NCBI GenBank assembly: GCA_001587575.1
Contig: LNJC01000010.1
Span: 1-40,806 of the forward strand
Direction of reading: 5' to 3'
Length of the DNA: 40,806 nucleotides
Origin: Candidatus Methanofastidiosum methylothiophilum
Lineage (GTDB): Archaea; Methanobacteriota_B; Thermococci; Methanofastidiosales; Methanofastidiosaceae
In this document: piece by piece, positions 34,293 through 40,803 of the stretch
How positions within the stretch are numbered: the stretch's first letter is position 1
How the letters are laid out: each line of letters starts with the position of its first letter
The notes under the pieces: model-generated
Seen by the model: only the letters and a program-made list of their open reading frames with translations
The model's database searches: none
Told to the model about the DNA's origin: nothing
Made by a program: the position numbers and the translations under genes

Positions 34293-35381
34293 TTAAAGGA
34301 AATATAGTTCAGGATGCCCAATTATAGCATCAGCAATTCTTTTTGATACTTTATCGTCCCATAATGGTGGCTTTGGATATTTTTTCTTTCTTTTAGAAAT
34401 TTCGGATATGGCAGAAGATAATTTTAGTGGATCCATACCAATAAGGATATTCGCACCATTTTTTAGTGTTACTACCCTTTCTGTGTTCTCTCTTAAAGTT
34501 ATACAAGGTACATCAAGCATTAATGCTTCTTCCTGAATTCCTCCTGAATCTGTCATTATAAATTTTGAATTTGACATAAGCCATAGAAAGTCAAGATATC
34601 CTAAAGGTTCAATTATTTCAATATTTTTTCCAATATTTTTTAGATACCCCGCCTCTTCCAATACTTTTTTAGTTCTTGGATGAAGTGGAACAATAATTTT
34701 GATATCTATTTTGGCTAAAGAATTAAATAAGTCTATAAGTATTTTCTTATCGGCTGTATTCTCTGCCCTGTGAATTGTCATAAGCCCATAACTATTAGGA
34801 ACTAAAGAAAGAATCTTCAAAATATTAGATTTTTTTGATTTTTGGAAGTGAGATAACAATGTTTCAACCATAACATTTCCTACAAAAAAAATTCTTTTCT
34901 TGTCAGCCCCTTCTGAAATTAGATTAGTAACAGCGTCTTCTGTAGGTGCAAATAAAAATTGAGATATTCTATCAACGAGTATTCTATTTATTTCTTCTGG
35001 CATTCTCATGTCAAATGATCGATAACCTGCCTCTACATGTGCTACTGGAATCTGCATTTTAATAGAGGATATTGCGCCTGCAAGGGTAGAATTTACATCC
35101 CCAACAACAACTGTCAGGTCAGGTTTTTCTTCAGATAATACTTCTTCAATTCTAGACATCATTGCACCAGTTTGAACCCCGTGTGTTCCAGATCCAATTC
35201 CAAGAAAAACATCAGGCTTTGGAAGCTCTAAATCCTCAAAAAATACTCTGTTCATATTTTCGTCATAATGCTGACCAGTATGGACAAGAACCTGTTCAAT
35301 TTTTCTTTGTTTAAACTCTTCATATATGGGCTTTATCTTCATGAAATTGGGTCTTGCGCCCACTATTGAGAGTATTTTCAT
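34293..35381 (-). CDS. wecB: UDP-N-acetylglucosamine 2-epimerase (non-hydrolysing)
   Basis: A 362-residue GT-B-fold enzyme that interconverts UDP-GlcNAc and UDP-ManNAc, a precursor for surface glycans and protein glycosylation. The signature segments are SIVGARPNFMKI, LVHTGQHYDENM, the GDVNSTLAGA loop, VAHVEAGYRSFDMRMPEE and FIMTDSGGIQEEA. It heads a small envelope cluster with the AI-2E and UPF0104 genes. It probably starts near-leaderless, with a TATA-like TTAAAAGC near 35405 on the minus strand, divergent from the cysteine-rich gene. Confidence 0.96.
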   Translation of the reverse strand: MKILSIVGARPNFMKIKPIYEEFKQRKIEQVLVHTGQHYDENMNRVFFEDLELPKPDVFLGIGSGTHGVQTGAMMSRIEEVLSEEKPDLTVVVGDVNSTLAGAISSIKMQIPVAHVEAGYRSFDMRMPEEINRILVDRISQFLFAPTEDAVTNLISEGADKKRIFFVGNVMVETLLSHFQKSKKSNILKILSLVPNSYGLMTIHRAENTADKKILIDLFNSLAKIDIKIIVPLHPRTKKVLEEAGYLKNIGKNIEIIEPLGYLDFLWLMSNSKFIMTDSGGIQEEALMLDVPCITLRENTERVVTLKNGANILIGMDPLKLSSAISEISKRKKKYPKPPLWDDKVSKRIADAIIGHPELYFL

Positions 35382-35435: not shown

Positions 35436-35485
35436 ATGAAACGGTTATAGTATTATTTCATCTAAACTTTTATATATTGTTTCAT
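35436..35485 (+). promoter_or_regulatory. Promoter and candidate metal operator of the Cys/Tyr-rich gene
   Basis: ATGAAAC (35436-35442) and ATTTCAT (35455-35461) form an inverted pair just upstream of the TATA box TTATATATT (35470-35478). GTTTCAT at 35479-35485 lies directly downstream of the box. The predicted RNA start near 35499 leaves a 32-nt leader with a strong SD (AAGGAGGT). The same GTTTC/GAAAC words recur at the HMA gene and copA promoters, suggesting a shared regulator. Confidence 0.5.
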
Positions 35486-35530
35486 CTTTAGGTATAATGT
35501 AATAATTAAATTATTATAAGGAGGTATGCT

Positions 35531-36022
35531 ATGAGTAATGGCGATGGATTGAAAGTTTTATCTGCAGTTCTTGCAGTGCTTTTATTAGTATCTATAATAG
35601 GAAACTTCTTTTTCTTGTATCGCTCTCTTTCAGACACAGGGCAGGGAACTCAGTACAATGTTTTGTTGACTGAAAAGATGGGGCTTGATAATAAAATAAA
35701 TTTGTTAGACTCACAAATAGCAGATAAGAATAAGAAAATATCAGAACTTGAATCTGAAGTAAGATCTCTTAAATCTCAGTATGATACTGCACAAAGAAAT
35801 GTCGATTTGAAACAAAGGGTGATTGATAATTACGAAACTAGGGTGAAATCCTTAGAGGACCAGCTTTACAATTGCCAGTATAAAACTCCAAAGACATATA
35901 TATCATCTTGCTCATGTGGCTACTATAAATACTATTGCACTTGTAACGGATACTGCTACTATGACTGGTATTGCCCGAGTTCATGCTCATGCTGTTATAC
36001 TAGTACTTGCATAAATTGTTAA
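35531..36022 (+). CDS. Membrane-anchored coiled-coil protein with Cys/Tyr-rich metallothionein-like tail
   Basis: A 163-residue protein with no family I recognise. A hydrophobic anchor spans about 9-30, a heptad coiled coil about 42-112, and then a tail of about 50 residues. In the last 37 positions there are 11 cysteines (127, 129, 136, 138, 142, 148, 152, 154, 155, 160, 163), and the tail also carries ten tyrosines. Motifs include CSCG, CTC, CSCC and a terminal CINC. The thiol density resembles metallothionein. As the first gene of a copper/soft-metal island with shared operators, it likely binds metal, possibly on the outer face; topology is ambiguous. The hairpin at 36028-36086 follows. 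A disulphide-rich structural protein is an alternative. Confidence 0.85.
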   Translation: MSNGDGLKVLSAVLAVLLLVSIIGNFFFLYRSLSDTGQGTQYNVLLTEKMGLDNKINLLDSQIADKNKKISELESEVRSLKSQYDTAQRNVDLKQRVIDNYETRVKSLEDQLYNCQYKTPKTYISSCSCGYYKYYCTCNGYCYYDWYCPSSCSCCYTSTCINC

Positions 36023-36027
36023 TAGAA

Positions 36028-36086
36028 TTTGAGGAAGAAGCTTATGAGTCGAAAAATCCAATGGAGACTCTAAGTTCTTCCTCAAA
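36028..36086 (+). terminator. Long hairpin with T-rich tail after the Cys/Tyr-rich gene
   Basis: TTTGAGGAAGAA (36028-36039) pairs perfectly with TTCTTCCTCAAA (36075-36086). The stem continues through CTTA/TAAG and GAG/CTC with single-base bulges. The loop is 19 nt, and a T-rich run (ACTTTTCTTTT) follows. Archaeal termination relies mainly on T-runs, so the large hairpin may instead protect the transcript or be a separate RNA. It isolates the gene from the regulator downstream. Confidence 0.55.
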
Positions 36087-36179: not shown

Positions 36180-36671
36180 ATGAGAAATAGAATAGTAGGT
36201 ATACTAATAATTTTTGTTTCCCTATTGATGGGATTTATAATTTTTTCATTTAACAGAGCGATGACAGAAATAGTAAATACATCTTGTGAACATGGGTCGT
36301 CGTGCCCTATGTGGGGAACAATTGATTTCCAGACAAATGTCAGTATTGCTATAATGAGTTTTGTTATTTTAATAGGAATTTACCTAATCTTTTTTGGAAA
36401 AGAAGAGCGAACAGATGCCAAAGAAGAAATGAAAGACGCTTCAATTTCAAAAGAAGCTTACGAAGAAATAATGAGAACAATGAATAATGAAGAAAAGATT
36501 GTGCTTGAAAGCATAATTAATTCAAACGGGACGATATTCCAATCAGAACTAACTGACAAAACAAACTTTAACAAGGTAAAAGTAACTAGAATTTTGGATA
36601 AACTTGAAGGTCGAGGAATAATAGAGAGAAGAAGACGCGGTATGACTAATGTTATAATATTGAAACACTGA
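36180..36671 (+). CDS. Membrane-bound winged-helix (MarR-like) regulator with Cys/His/Met sensor loop
   Basis: A 163-residue one-component sensor. Two membrane helices (about 5-24 and 52-72) bracket an extracytoplasmic loop with TSCEHGSSCPMWG, where C36, H38, C42 and M44 form an evident soft-metal site. The positive N-terminus (RNR) argues for N-inside topology. The C-terminal half (about 95-163) is a winged HTH like the MarR/COG2512 group: helix EKIVLESIINSNG, recognition helix KVKVTRILDKLEG and a basic wing ERRRRG. It would sense metal outside and act on DNA inside, plausibly at the GAAAC/GTTTC sites of this island. Its stop lies just before the operator at 36680. Confidence 0.85.
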   Translation: MRNRIVGILIIFVSLLMGFIIFSFNRAMTEIVNTSCEHGSSCPMWGTIDFQTNVSIAIMSFVILIGIYLIFFGKEERTDAKEEMKDASISKEAYEEIMRTMNNEEKIVLESIINSNGTIFQSELTDKTNFNKVKVTRILDKLEGRGIIERRRRGMTNVIILKH

Positions 36672-36679
36672 AACTACTA

Positions 36680-36717
36680 GAAACTAGTTTCAAACAATGA
36701 CTAATAAAGAGTTTCAT
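36680..36717 (+). promoter_or_regulatory. Palindromic operator and promoter of the HMA gene
   Basis: GAAACTAGTTTC at 36680-36691 is a perfect 12-bp palindrome. A further GTTTCAT sits at 36711-36717, immediately after the TATA-like CTAATAAAG (36701-36709), the same box-then-GTTTCAT arrangement as in the Cys/Tyr-rich gene promoter. The predicted RNA start is near 36731, with the SD AAGGAGGT before the ATG. It is the best-formed copy of the island motif. Confidence 0.5.
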
Positions 36718-36758: not shown

Positions 36759-37634
36759 ATGGAAAAAACAATAAAAATCAAAGGGATGCATTGTAAAAGC
36801 TGTGTATGTGCAATTAAAGATAAACTAGAATCTCTAAATGGAATAAAAAGTGCCAAAGTTACTCTATTGAAAAATGAAGCTATAGTAGATTTTGACCCTG
36901 CTAAAATAGATTTGGAGCAAATTCAAATTGAAATAGAAAAATTAGGATATTCAACGGGATTGAACTTTGAAAAGAAATCAAACAATATTCTAAAAGGCCT
37001 AGTTTATGGGATTGTACCCCATATTGGTTGTATAGGATTTATTTTAGGATCCGTTCTAGGTGTATCTATCCTAATGCAATTTTTTAGACCTCTTCTAATG
37101 AGTAGGTACTTTTTCTACGGGCTTGTTGCACTTTCTCTTGGATTTGCATCTGTCTCTGTATTATTGTATTTAAGAAACAACGAACTACTATCTGTGAAGG
37201 GATTACAAAGAAAATGGAAGTACGTTACAATAACATATGGGTCGACAGTTGGAGTAAATCTGGCCTTATTTCTAATAGTGTTCCCTATGCTTGCAAATGT
37301 TTCTGCCTCAGTGGGGGGAGATCAAGTGACAATAGGCTCAACTGAATTTATTACTTTAAGAGTGAATATCCCGTGCTCAGGCCATGCCCCTTTGATATCT
37401 AATGAGCTTAAGACGATAAATGGAGTTCAAGAAGTCAGATATAGTACACCTAATACATTTGCCGTAAAATACGATTCAGGAAGAACTAGTAAAACAGATA
37501 TACTAAAACTTGCAGTATTTAGAGAATATCCTGCAACTGTTTTGAATGAGACTTCTTCAACTAGAAATCTTTCAGCTCCACCTGCGGCCACTAATAATTC
37601 CTCATCCGGATGTGCTTGCTGCAGGGGAAAGTAG
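36759..37634 (+). CDS. HMA-domain membrane protein with external HMA-like domain and CACC tail
   Basis: A 291-residue protein. Residues 1-66 are a heavy-metal-associated domain with the site GMHCKSC (C12, C15). Three helices follow (about 78-106, 116-138, 155-183), with H88 and C91 in the first. Residues ~197-261 look like a second HMA fold whose CxxC is replaced by C206-x-x-H209 (IPCSGHA). The tail ends SGCACCRGK with C285, C287 and C288. If the N-terminus is inside, the second domain and tail are outside. The layout recalls MerT (three helices) fused to MerP-like domains. It likely moves soft metal across the membrane between thiol sites; direction is not known. Confidence 0.85.
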   Translation: MEKTIKIKGMHCKSCVCAIKDKLESLNGIKSAKVTLLKNEAIVDFDPAKIDLEQIQIEIEKLGYSTGLNFEKKSNNILKGLVYGIVPHIGCIGFILGSVLGVSILMQFFRPLLMSRYFFYGLVALSLGFASVSVLLYLRNNELLSVKGLQRKWKYVTITYGSTVGVNLALFLIVFPMLANVSASVGGDQVTIGSTEFITLRVNIPCSGHAPLISNELKTINGVQEVRYSTPNTFAVKYDSGRTSKTDILKLAVFREYPATVLNETSSTRNLSAPPAATNNSSSGCACCRGK

Positions 37635-37659: not shown

Positions 37660-38139
37660 GTGAAAAGAATAACTTTATTTAAATCTTTGATTATTACATC
37701 CTTTTTTATCACACTTTTTTTAGCTTCAGGATGTAATTCTGTAAAAGAGATTGATACAAAATCACAAAAGGCATCTAATTCAGATGCACAAATAAATCAG
37801 ATTAGTATTGAAATATCTGATGTTTCAGAAAATGCTAAATGGTACAAATATGAAAAAGATGGCAAAGTATTATCATTCTTTGTATTAAAAGGTTCGGATG
37901 GAAAAATAAGAGTGGCATTTGATGCCTGCTATATATGCTATCCTGAAAAAAAAGGATATAGACAAGAAGGAAGCTACATGGTTTGTAATAATTGTGACCT
38001 TGTATTTGCCATAAATGGGATTGGGACTGAGAATAAAGTAAGCGGGGGATGTTGGCCCGGATATTTGACTTCAAAAATAGAAGGAAATTATGTAAAGATT
38101 GAAAAAATTGATTTAGAGAACGGCAAATGGAGATTTTAA
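37660..38139 (+). CDS. DUF2318 family cysteine-rich lipoprotein
   Basis: A 159-residue secreted lipoprotein. A signal helix ends in the lipobox LASGC (C25), so it should be anchored outside the membrane. The C-terminal half matches DUF2318 with ACYIC (C90, C93), MVCNNC (C109, C112) and GGC (C131), five cysteines spaced for a metal site. Family members are linked to metal uptake or respiration but the function is not settled. The start is GTG with the SD GGGGT. It lies 25 nt after the HMA gene and shares its promoter, suggesting both work together outside the cell. Confidence 0.88.
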   Translation: MKRITLFKSLIITSFFITLFLASGCNSVKEIDTKSQKASNSDAQINQISIEISDVSENAKWYKYEKDGKVLSFFVLKGSDGKIRVAFDACYICYPEKKGYRQEGSYMVCNNCDLVFAINGIGTENKVSGGCWPGYLTSKIEGNYVKIEKIDLENGKWRF

Positions 38140-38172: not shown

Positions 38173-38203
38173 GTTTCATTTAAATAATTAGAAATAGTTT
38201 TAG
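38173..38203 (+). promoter_or_regulatory. Promoter and candidate operator of copA
   Basis: CTGTTTC (38171-38177) and GAAATAG (38191-38197) form a near-perfect inverted repeat. The 13-nt spacer contains the TATA box TTTAAATAA (38179-38187). A bound repressor would cover the TATA box. The half-sites match the GAAAC/GTTTC word found at the HMA and Cys/Tyr-rich genes. The predicted RNA start is near 38209, with the SD AGGAG before the ATG. Confidence 0.5.
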
Positions 38204-38229: not shown

Positions 38230-40647
38230 ATGGCAGATAAAGAGAATAAAAAAATAGAAATTAAGGTCACTGGGATGACTTGCGCTACATGTGCTGCAAC
38301 TATAGAAAAATCCCTTTTAAATCTAGAAGGGGTTAAGAAAGCAGAAGTTAATCTTGCAAGAGAAATTGCATCTGTAGAATATAATCCTCAAAAACTAAGA
38401 ATTAATGACATCAATAATGCTGTGAAGGATGCAGGCTATGATGTGGTGCATGAAAGAGCTATTCTAAAAGTTGGCGGAATGACATGTGTAATGTGCGCTA
38501 ACTCGATTCAAAATGCTTTGGAAAAGTTAGATGGCGTTATAAAAGTTACAGTAAATGTAACTTCTGAAAAAGTATATGTCACCTTTAATTCTAAAGTTGT
38601 TTCAATATCAGAAATGAAAAAAACTATTGAAGAGTCTGGATATCAATATCTTGGGATTGAAGGAGAAGCTTTAGAGGATCTTAAAAGAGAAAACATCCAA
38701 AGAGATAGGAAATATAGGATACTTGTAGGTGCAATAGACTCTGCCATACTAATGGGCTTAATGTATATGCCAATGATGATGCTCCCACACGAGTTATCCA
38801 TGTCTCTTTTAATGTTTCTAGTTGCCCTTCCTGCTTTTGCATATTTAAGCTACCCCATATTCAAGGCGGCTTATAGATCCCTTAAGAACAAAAATCTAAA
38901 TATGGATGTAATGTATTCAATGGGTATCGGAGTTGCGTTTTTTTCAAGCGTTCTCGGTACTTTCAAGGTATTACATCATGATTTCATGTTCTATGAAGCT
39001 GCTGTAATGCTCGCTACATTCCTAACTTTAGGAAGATATCTAGAAGAAAGAGCAAAGGGAAAAACTTCTGAATCTATAAAAAGATTGATGGGTTTGCAGG
39101 CAAAAAGTGCTAGGGTGATACGTGATGGAAAAGAAATTGAAATATCAATTGAAGATGTTGTGGTTGGGGATACAGTTATAGTAAAACCCGGGGAGAAAAT
39201 TCCTGTTGATGGAGAAGTAATTTTGGGAGAAAGCTTTGTTGATGAATCAATGATATCAGGAGAACCTATCCCTGTGTTCAAAGAAAAAGGAAGTAAATTA
39301 ATAGGTGCAACAATAAACAAAAATAGTGTATTAAATTTTAAGGCGACAAATGTCGGAAAAGATACAGTTCTCTCTCAGATTATAAGACTTGTAGAAGAAG
39401 CCCAAGGATCTAAACCTGAAATACAGAAAATTGCAGATAAGATAGTTACTTATTTTATACCTACTGTCTTAGCAATCGCCACAATATCCTTTATAAGTTG
39501 GTACTTTATTTTTGGTAGCACGTTCTTATTTGCAATAACAAGCTTAATTTCTATCCTTGTAATTGCATGTCCATGCGCACTTGGTTTGGCAACTCCTACG
39601 GCAGTTACAGTTGGTATCGGAAAAGGTGCAGATCTAGGAATTCTCATTAAAAATGGAGAAGCTTTAGAGCTTTCTGAAAAGTTAACTGCAGTATTGTTTG
39701 ATAAAACAGGAACATTGACTAAAGGTAAACCCGATGTTACAGATGTATTGCCCTTCGATATAACTGAAGACTCACTTATCAAGATGGCTGCAAGTGTTGA
39801 AAAAAATTCAGATCACCCCTTGGCAAACGCAATAATAAAAAAAGCAGAGCATAAGGGTATTGACTTATCTGAAAGTAAGAATTTTGATACATTTGGAGGA
39901 AAAGGTGTCAAGGCAAGCGTATCAGACAAAGAAGTAATTATAGGCAACAGAACTCTATTTAATGAGAAGAAAATATCAATTAGAAGTGAAGTTGAGGAAA
40001 AAATAGCCAAAATAGAAAACGAAGGCAAGACTGCTGTTTTGATATCAATAGATAACAAGCTTTCAGGAATAATAGGTATTGCAGATACTCTAAAAGATAC
40101 TTCCAAAGAATCGATTGAGAAATTGATGAATTCTGGACTTAAGGTATACATGATTACAGGAGATAACAAGCGTACCGCTTCAGCAATAGCCAAAGTCTTA
40201 TCTATAAAAAATATACTTGCAGAAGTACTTCCCGAAGATAAAGCAAAGGAAGTGAAAAGACTTCAGAATAATGGAGAAGTTGTGGCTTTCGTAGGAGATG
40301 GAATAAACGATGCACCTGCACTAGCACAAGCAGACGTTGGAATAGCAATCGGCAGTGGAACTGATGTTGCTATAGAAAGTGGGGGAATAGTTCTAGTTAA
40401 AAATGATATAAGGGATGTAGTGTTAGCAATTAAGTTAAGTAAGAAAGTCATGCAGAGAATTAAGCAAAATTTATTTTGGGCGTTTGCTTACAATACAGCT
40501 CTTATTCCTGTTGCCGCGGGTGTATTGTATCCAACCTTTGGTATTACCTTGAGACCAGAATTTGCAGGATTTGCGATGGCAATGAGTTCAGTTACTGTGG
40601 TAACGCTATCGCTAATGTTAAAAAGGTTCAATCCTAAAAATAATTAA
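38230..40647 (+). CDS. copA: Copper-exporting P1B-type ATPase CopA
   Basis: An 805-residue heavy-metal pump. Two N-terminal HMA domains carry GMTCATC (C18, C21) and GMTCVMC (C86, C89). The transport site is CPC at 447-449. The actuator loop is SGEP (343-346), the phosphorylation site DKTGT (491-495), the SDHP motif is near 527-530 and the GDGINDAP hinge near the C-terminus. The last helices hold YN (FAYNTAL) and MxxSS (MAMSSVT), the P1B-1 signature for Cu+/Ag+. It exports Cu+ using ATP. It has its own promoter with island operators and is followed by the YHS gene. Confidence 0.97.
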   Translation: MADKENKKIEIKVTGMTCATCAATIEKSLLNLEGVKKAEVNLAREIASVEYNPQKLRINDINNAVKDAGYDVVHERAILKVGGMTCVMCANSIQNALEKLDGVIKVTVNVTSEKVYVTFNSKVVSISEMKKTIEESGYQYLGIEGEALEDLKRENIQRDRKYRILVGAIDSAILMGLMYMPMMMLPHELSMSLLMFLVALPAFAYLSYPIFKAAYRSLKNKNLNMDVMYSMGIGVAFFSSVLGTFKVLHHDFMFYEAAVMLATFLTLGRYLEERAKGKTSESIKRLMGLQAKSARVIRDGKEIEISIEDVVVGDTVIVKPGEKIPVDGEVILGESFVDESMISGEPIPVFKEKGSKLIGATINKNSVLNFKATNVGKDTVLSQIIRLVEEAQGSKPEIQKIADKIVTYFIPTVLAIATISFISWYFIFGSTFLFAITSLISILVIACPCALGLATPTAVTVGIGKGADLGILIKNGEALELSEKLTAVLFDKTGTLTKGKPDVTDVLPFDITEDSLIKMAASVEKNSDHPLANAIIKKAEHKGIDLSESKNFDTFGGKGVKASVSDKEVIIGNRTLFNEKKISIRSEVEEKIAKIENEGKTAVLISIDNKLSGIIGIADTLKDTSKESIEKLMNSGLKVYMITGDNKRTASAIAKVLSIKNILAEVLPEDKAKEVKRLQNNGEVVAFVGDGINDAPALAQADVGIAIGSGTDVAIESGGIVLVKNDIRDVVLAIKLSKKVMQRIKQNLFWAFAYNTALIPVAAGVLYPTFGITLRPEFAGFAMAMSSVTVVTLSLMLKRFNPKNN

Positions 40648-40659
40648 GAGGCGATACTA

Positions 40660-40803
40660 TTGGCCATTGATCCCGTTTGTAAAATGACTGTGGATGAAAA
40701 AACTGCAAAATTCAAGAGTAACTACAAAGGCAAGGTATATTACTTCTGTGCGCCAGGCTGTAAGAAAAGTTTCGACCAGAACCCTGAAAAATATTTGAAT
40801 TGA
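40660..40803 (+). CDS. YHS domain protein (47 residues)
   Basis: A complete small gene too short for ordinary calling. A TTG at 40660 preceded by GAGGCGAT opens 47 codons ending TGA at 40803. The product starts AIDPVCKMTVDEKTAKF and continues VYYFCAPGCKKSF, the YHS/TRASH-like pattern with cysteines for zinc or copper. The same domain is fused to some copper ATPases; here it is a separate peptide directly downstream of copA with a 12-nt gap. It likely binds Cu+ and hands it to or from CopA. The window ends 3 nt later. Confidence 0.9.
   Translation: MAIDPVCKMTVDEKTAKFKSNYKGKVYYFCAPGCKKSFDQNPEKYLN

Follow-up and report, generated by a model that had tools for sequence, protein, structure and literature searches.

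Metallothioneins are small, soluble, cytosolic proteins that have few or no aromatic residues and whose cysteines are packed very densely, as CxC and CC motifs, into a short segment. Copper clusters of archaea and bacteria bring together CopA, HMA proteins and YHS proteins. We describe here a gene that resembles both systems in part. It comes from the Methanofastidiosales, little-known methane-making archaea that are known almost only from assembled metagenomes. The window, i.e., the whole 40,806-nt stretch of DNA analysed, contains the gene named CYT here; all coordinates without a contig label refer to the window. A first-pass annotation, made from the letters alone, had read CYT as a membrane anchor, a coiled coil and a 37-residue tail with 11 Cys and many Tyr, and this anatomy was confirmed by the open reading frame, hydropathy, AlphaFold2 and composition. 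The parts of the gene are as follows.

35520–35525, + strand: ribosome binding site GGAGGT of CYT (sequence; kept in 8 genomes).
35531–36022, + strand: CYT, 163 aa (open reading frame; orthologs 73–90% identical).
35555–35623, + strand: membrane anchor, residues 9–31 (hydropathy; model helix 5–35).
35645–35884, + strand: coiled coil, residues 39–118, closing with the conserved LExxLxxC that contains C115 (AlphaFold2 helix; coiled-coil-only Pfam matches; C115 invariant).
35909–36019, + strand: Cys/Tyr-rich head, residues 127–163, with 11 Cys, 9 Tyr and 1 Trp (composition, conservation, model).

The open reading frame has exactly these limits, with an ATG start behind a GGAGG ribosome site, and its 73–90% identical orthologs indicate that CYT is a genuine protein-coding gene. 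Residues 9–31 make a strongly hydrophobic segment, with a best 19-residue mean of 2.55. The 11 Cys in 37 residues have a binomial chance of ~1e-13 when the Cys frequency is taken from ten neighbouring proteins (1.05%); outside the CYT gene, no frame of the window has a stretch of that length with more than 7 Cys. To these we add a twelfth Cys, the invariant C115 at the end of the coiled coil. Structure prediction (AlphaFold2, input including four orthologs) gave helices 5–35 and 39–118, with pLDDT above 90 over 51–110, and three short strands (121–127, 130–136, 142–147) at moderate confidence, ~55–70; the last six residues are unreliable, and the pTM is 0.32 in a model dominated by the long helix. 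The absence of a known family also held: searches of Pfam, NCBIfam and PDB sequences with CYT returned coiled-coil noise only. Matches to Thermococci-class proteins of ~400–1200 aa were dismissed as coiled-coil artefacts. No relatives were found in viral contigs or phage records, nor was anything on the protein found in titles and abstracts of the literature. CYT is thus, as judged from these searches, a member of an undescribed family.

Mean pairwise identity within the genus reaches 0.89 in the anchor and 0.87 in the tail, against 0.78 in the coiled coil and 0.72 in the linker. Of the 12 Cys only C138 varies, being Pro in one ortholog (G003), so that 10 of the 11 tail Cys are invariant. In a loose thiol polymer one would expect the Cys to stay and the other residues to drift; the non-Cys residues of the tail are by themselves 0.83 identical between species, compared with 0.78 for the coiled coil. 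Because these residues are as well conserved as the coiled coil, and with the tail predicted as strands, the pattern suggests a folded head rather than a disordered metal-binding polymer.

CYT orthologs were found in 8 of the 10 Methanofastidiosum genomes. The two others (G006, G009) are draft assemblies in which CYT may still be present: the copper contig of G006 opens within the regulator gene or just ahead of it, and in G009 neither HMA nor wecB matches were found. The neighbouring genes in the window are listed below.

34293–35381, − strand: wecB (UDP-GlcNAc 2-epimerase), divergent, constant left neighbour (adjoins CYT in 8/8 genus genomes carrying CYT).
36180–36671, + strand: putative membrane-bound regulator of MarR/DUF7343 type with an extracytoplasmic CEHGSSCPM loop (orthologs align from near its ATG).
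36759–37634, + strand: HMA-domain membrane protein, 291 aa, C-terminus GCACCRGK (Pfam HMA, 2e-18).
37660–38139, + strand: FtrD-like protein (Pfam FtrD-like, 1e-26).
38230–40647, + strand: copper-type P1B ATPase, CopA-like (TIGR01511, 609 bits, cut-off 397).
40660–40803, + strand: small YHS-domain protein (Pfam YHS, 7e-19).

The metal genes noticed in the first-pass annotation are therefore real, and the position of CYT at the head of a copper cluster recurs in every genus genome with a contig that reaches that far. Downstream of CYT, copA is present in 5/5 loci on long enough contigs (the window, G001, G002, G005, G007); the contig of G008 breaks off within copA, and those of G003 and G004 stop at or just past CYT, the copper genes of G003 being on a separate contig. 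Both G002 and G008 are missing the regulator, HMA and FtrD genes at this locus, and CYT directly precedes copA. Gene order inside a single genus is weak evidence for function. As side observations, the outer loop of the regulator is conserved as CEHGxxCPMW, which makes this protein a candidate one-component metal sensor, and the HMA-domain protein contains a second HMA-like segment, NIPCSGHAP.

Outside the genus the expected co-occurrence with metal genes broke down. A profile of the CYT tail run against 115 genomes of the phylum matched only in the genus and in two genomes of another family of the order, labelled f3 here. The f3 relatives (L010, L011) are 209 aa long and 24–28% identical to CYT; they have the anchor motif, the coiled coil, the invariant C115 and the CSC..C..C core, fewer Cys, and an added C-terminal segment, strand-rich in appearance. 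Their genes are flanked by ABCE1 (named by sequence reading) on one side and by the gene of a small membrane protein on the other, and the proteins of the window's copper genes had no match in 14–17 kb around them. Proteins of parallel build, read by eye, occur in families f2 and f4: a membrane helix, a coiled coil running to LxxxLxxC, and a Cys-rich loop in a strand-rich head. Such loops were seen in the f2 proteins L017, L018, L023 and L026 and the f4 proteins L013 and L019, e.g., CTTCGTCGSYCSTSCCGPCSC. In the window's own genome, a 271-aa coiled-coil protein of this kind (G000:C15) has a match at 3e-11 to one f4 protein. Since the f3 relatives have no copper neighbours and the f2 genomes lack HMA proteins altogether, despite their Cys-rich-headed coiled-coil proteins, coiled-coil stalks with Cys-rich heads are a habit of this order, independent of copper genes.

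The GTTTC words seen earlier in the promoters proved to be real, conserved and common to CYT and the HMA gene. They form part of a three-box operator, which is previously unreported.

35437–35484, + strand: CYT operator around the TATA box; TGAAAC 35437–35442, ATTTCA 35455–35460, TATA ~35468–35476, GTTTCA 35479–35484 (conservation).
36669–36716, + strand: HMA-gene operator; TGAAAC 36669, GTTTCA 36687, GTTTCA 36711 (alignment with the CYT operator).

The layout is TGAAA, ~18 bp, RTTTCA, 24 bp, GTTTCA, with the TATA box within the last interval. Upstream of CYT, ATTTCA-TATA-GTTTCA is identical in the 8 genomes save one base in G007, and RTTTCA-N18-GTTTCA, TATA inside, is exact in 8/8 CYT-bearing genomes. 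At loci that include the HMA gene, its operator has the same spacing as that of CYT (exact in G000, G001, G003 and G005). In G002 and G008 the operator upstream of CYT is intact; the local membrane regulator, absent there, would therefore not be required for operator upkeep. A third operator (G000:C15:24330–24378) precedes a two-gene operon, whose products are a protein with a signal peptide and the 271-aa coiled-coil protein, and a fourth (G000:C6:31394–31423) the gene of a secreted surface protein of 1606 aa, possibly the main surface protein of the genus. No metal genes were found beside either. The 1606-aa protein (L151:4576–9396) has repeated CarboxypepD_reg domains, a PEGA domain and, at its C-terminus, a membrane segment, and a short conserved ORF lies upstream of it (46 aa in G006).

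The TATA-constrained pattern RTTTCA-N10-TWTATA-N2-GTTTCA has exactly three exact matches in the 1.56-Mb genome, at CYT, the C15 operon and the C6 surface-protein gene; the HMA-gene operator departs from it at two positions of the TATA part. The pattern is present in 10/10 genus genomes, with zero control matches there, and among the order's 11 remaining genomes it has a single match, with one mismatch. On its own, the perfect palindrome GAAACNNGTTTC was not enriched (2 sites vs 4 in the control). Pairs of TGAAAC-N-GTTTCA elsewhere are mostly intragenic and were set aside; the pattern became selective only once the spacing was fixed and TATA required. The operator was not found in the conserved copA promoters; a near-match at 38173 upstream of the window copA was rejected as not conserved. 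Because the operator precedes surface and coiled-coil genes and not copA, GTTTC words alone do not indicate copper, and the set resembles an envelope-type regulon with a single metal gene among its members.

As the best explanation we tentatively favour, at somewhat short of even likelihood, an envelope stalk whose thiol head captures soft metals. A single membrane helix behind a short cytoplasmic N-terminus would anchor CYT; this N-in, head-out topology is predicted from the charged N-termini of longer relatives and from general rules. An extracytoplasmic coiled coil of ~80 residues, probably an oligomer stapled through C115, would raise the head off the membrane, and the clustered thiols of the small, presumably folded, Cys/Tyr-rich beta head would capture Cu, Zn or similar soft metal ions on the outer side of the membrane, close to the HMA protein and CopA. 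Transcription would start from the TGAAA / RTTTCA / GTTTCA operator bracketing the TATA box; because this operator is common to the HMA gene, the second coiled-coil protein and the giant surface protein, expression is predicted to follow an envelope programme and not copA. This reading draws on the strong conservation of the 12 Cys across the genus, on the modelled order of helix, helix and strands, and on a place between wecB and the copper genes that was kept in G002 and G008 despite gene loss. Sharing of the operator with the HMA gene also speaks for it, as does the operator's presence at two other envelope loci and near-absence from the order's other 11 genomes. Against it stand the f3 relatives without copper neighbours, the Cys-rich heads of f2 genomes that have no HMA protein, the conserved copA promoters without the operator, the weakness of a gene order limited to one genus, and the tail Cys lost in G003. 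By its shared operator, CYT reads as an envelope protein first and a possible metal catcher second. What stands of the "copper sponge" reading is a tethered, thiol-rich, undescribed protein beside metal genes, with a promoter signature in common with one of them; the wider promoter signal, the relatives without copper neighbours and the folded-looking tail do not fit it.

Several of the same observations serve a structural or adhesive spike of the envelope, its head a module knotted by disulfides or crosslinked through disulfides and tyrosines, working with the giant surface protein, and proximity to copper genes is incidental. We consider this a real possibility, albeit on the less probable side. 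The operator common to the 1606-aa surface protein and the second coiled-coil membrane protein fits it well, as do head aromatics as conserved as in a folded domain, an even 12 Cys per chain in most orthologs, and the relatives without copper neighbours. It accounts poorly for an adjacency to copper genes that outlasts local gene loss and for the use of the same operator by the HMA gene; the Cys count is odd (11) in G003, and the habitat is anaerobic and sulfide-rich, so that disulfides are not favoured.

That CYT is a sensor or ligand-presenting accessory, its head passing metal or reporting it to the MarR/DUF7343-type regulator or the HMA protein, we regard as improbable. CYT does adjoin an HMA protein and a membrane regulator whose outer loop reads CEHGSSCPM, but in G002 and G008, without the regulator and HMA genes between CYT and copA, CYT and its operator are intact.

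The last alternative concerns two features at the 3' end of the gene.

36028–36085, + strand: hairpin of 58 nt, 5 nt past the CYT stop codon, followed by a T-rich run (fold z-score, conservation).
36044–36073, + strand: possible 9-codon ORF MSRKIQWRL in the hairpin, with GAGG ahead (sequence reading).

The 91-nt stretch with the hairpin has a minimum free energy of −28 kcal/mol (z −5.4). Over seven genomes the mean pairwise identity of the hairpin is 94%, loop included, whereas third codon positions of CYT are 57–80% identical by region. Most of the loop is kept, including the palindromic core TCCANTGGA. A pattern search allowing ≤3 mismatches found exactly one copy in each of the seven genomes, always behind CYT, and Rfam gave no credible match. 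The hairpin could be a terminator or processing signal, yet the kept loop asks for more. Coding by the 9-codon ORF is doubtful because its variants are mostly non-synonymous. A cis-regulatory device, in which ribosome progress over the Cys/Tyr codons of the Cys-codon-rich 3' end, or the hairpin ORF, controls read-through into the copper genes, would explain the position, conservation, kept loop core and single copy of the hairpin, the T runs after it and the small ORF with its GAGG, but is very improbable given a tail conserved as protein and recurring in f3 without copper genes, an HMA gene with its own operator, and the mostly non-synonymous substitutions in the small ORF.

The stalk with a metal-capturing head may be extended to a genus-wide, TATA-clamping three-box envelope regulon, making stalks with a new folded Cys/Tyr metal-binding head from an mRNA with a new conserved 3' RNA element; in this full form we think it unlikely. 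CYT defines in the Methanofastidiosales an undescribed, order-restricted family of putative surface stalks with Cys/Tyr heads, and the three-box operator and the conserved 3' hairpin offer two testable regulatory elements linking metal handling with cell-surface genes.

Compared with copper clusters of archaea and bacteria, the locus is alike in the genes that neighbour CYT (CopA, HMA protein, YHS), in an adjacency seen wherever the genus contigs reach far enough, and in the promoter elements shared with the HMA gene. Unlike a component of such clusters, CYT does not have its operator on copA, its f3 relatives do not adjoin copper genes, and to our knowledge it is not a known component of them. 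With metallothioneins CYT shares the high Cys density (11 Cys in the 37 residues of the tail), the CxC and CC motifs and the shortness of the segment. It is unlike these soluble cytosolic proteins in its strong N-terminal membrane segment, its fusion to a coiled coil, its conserved non-Cys residues and the 9 Tyr and 1 Trp of its tail; the metallothionein models of Pfam and NCBIfam were not matched, only coiled-coil families. The f3 relatives have the same order of parts, next to ABCE1 in place of copper genes. The coiled-coil membrane proteins of the Methanofastidiosales (G000:C15 and those of f2 and f4) differ from CYT in a longer charged N-terminus, a larger beta domain and weak sequence similarity, and the C15 protein in its few Cys. 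They are like CYT in the membrane helix, the coiled coil running to LxxxLxxC and the Cys- or strand-rich head, and the C15 protein is like it also in the operator used.
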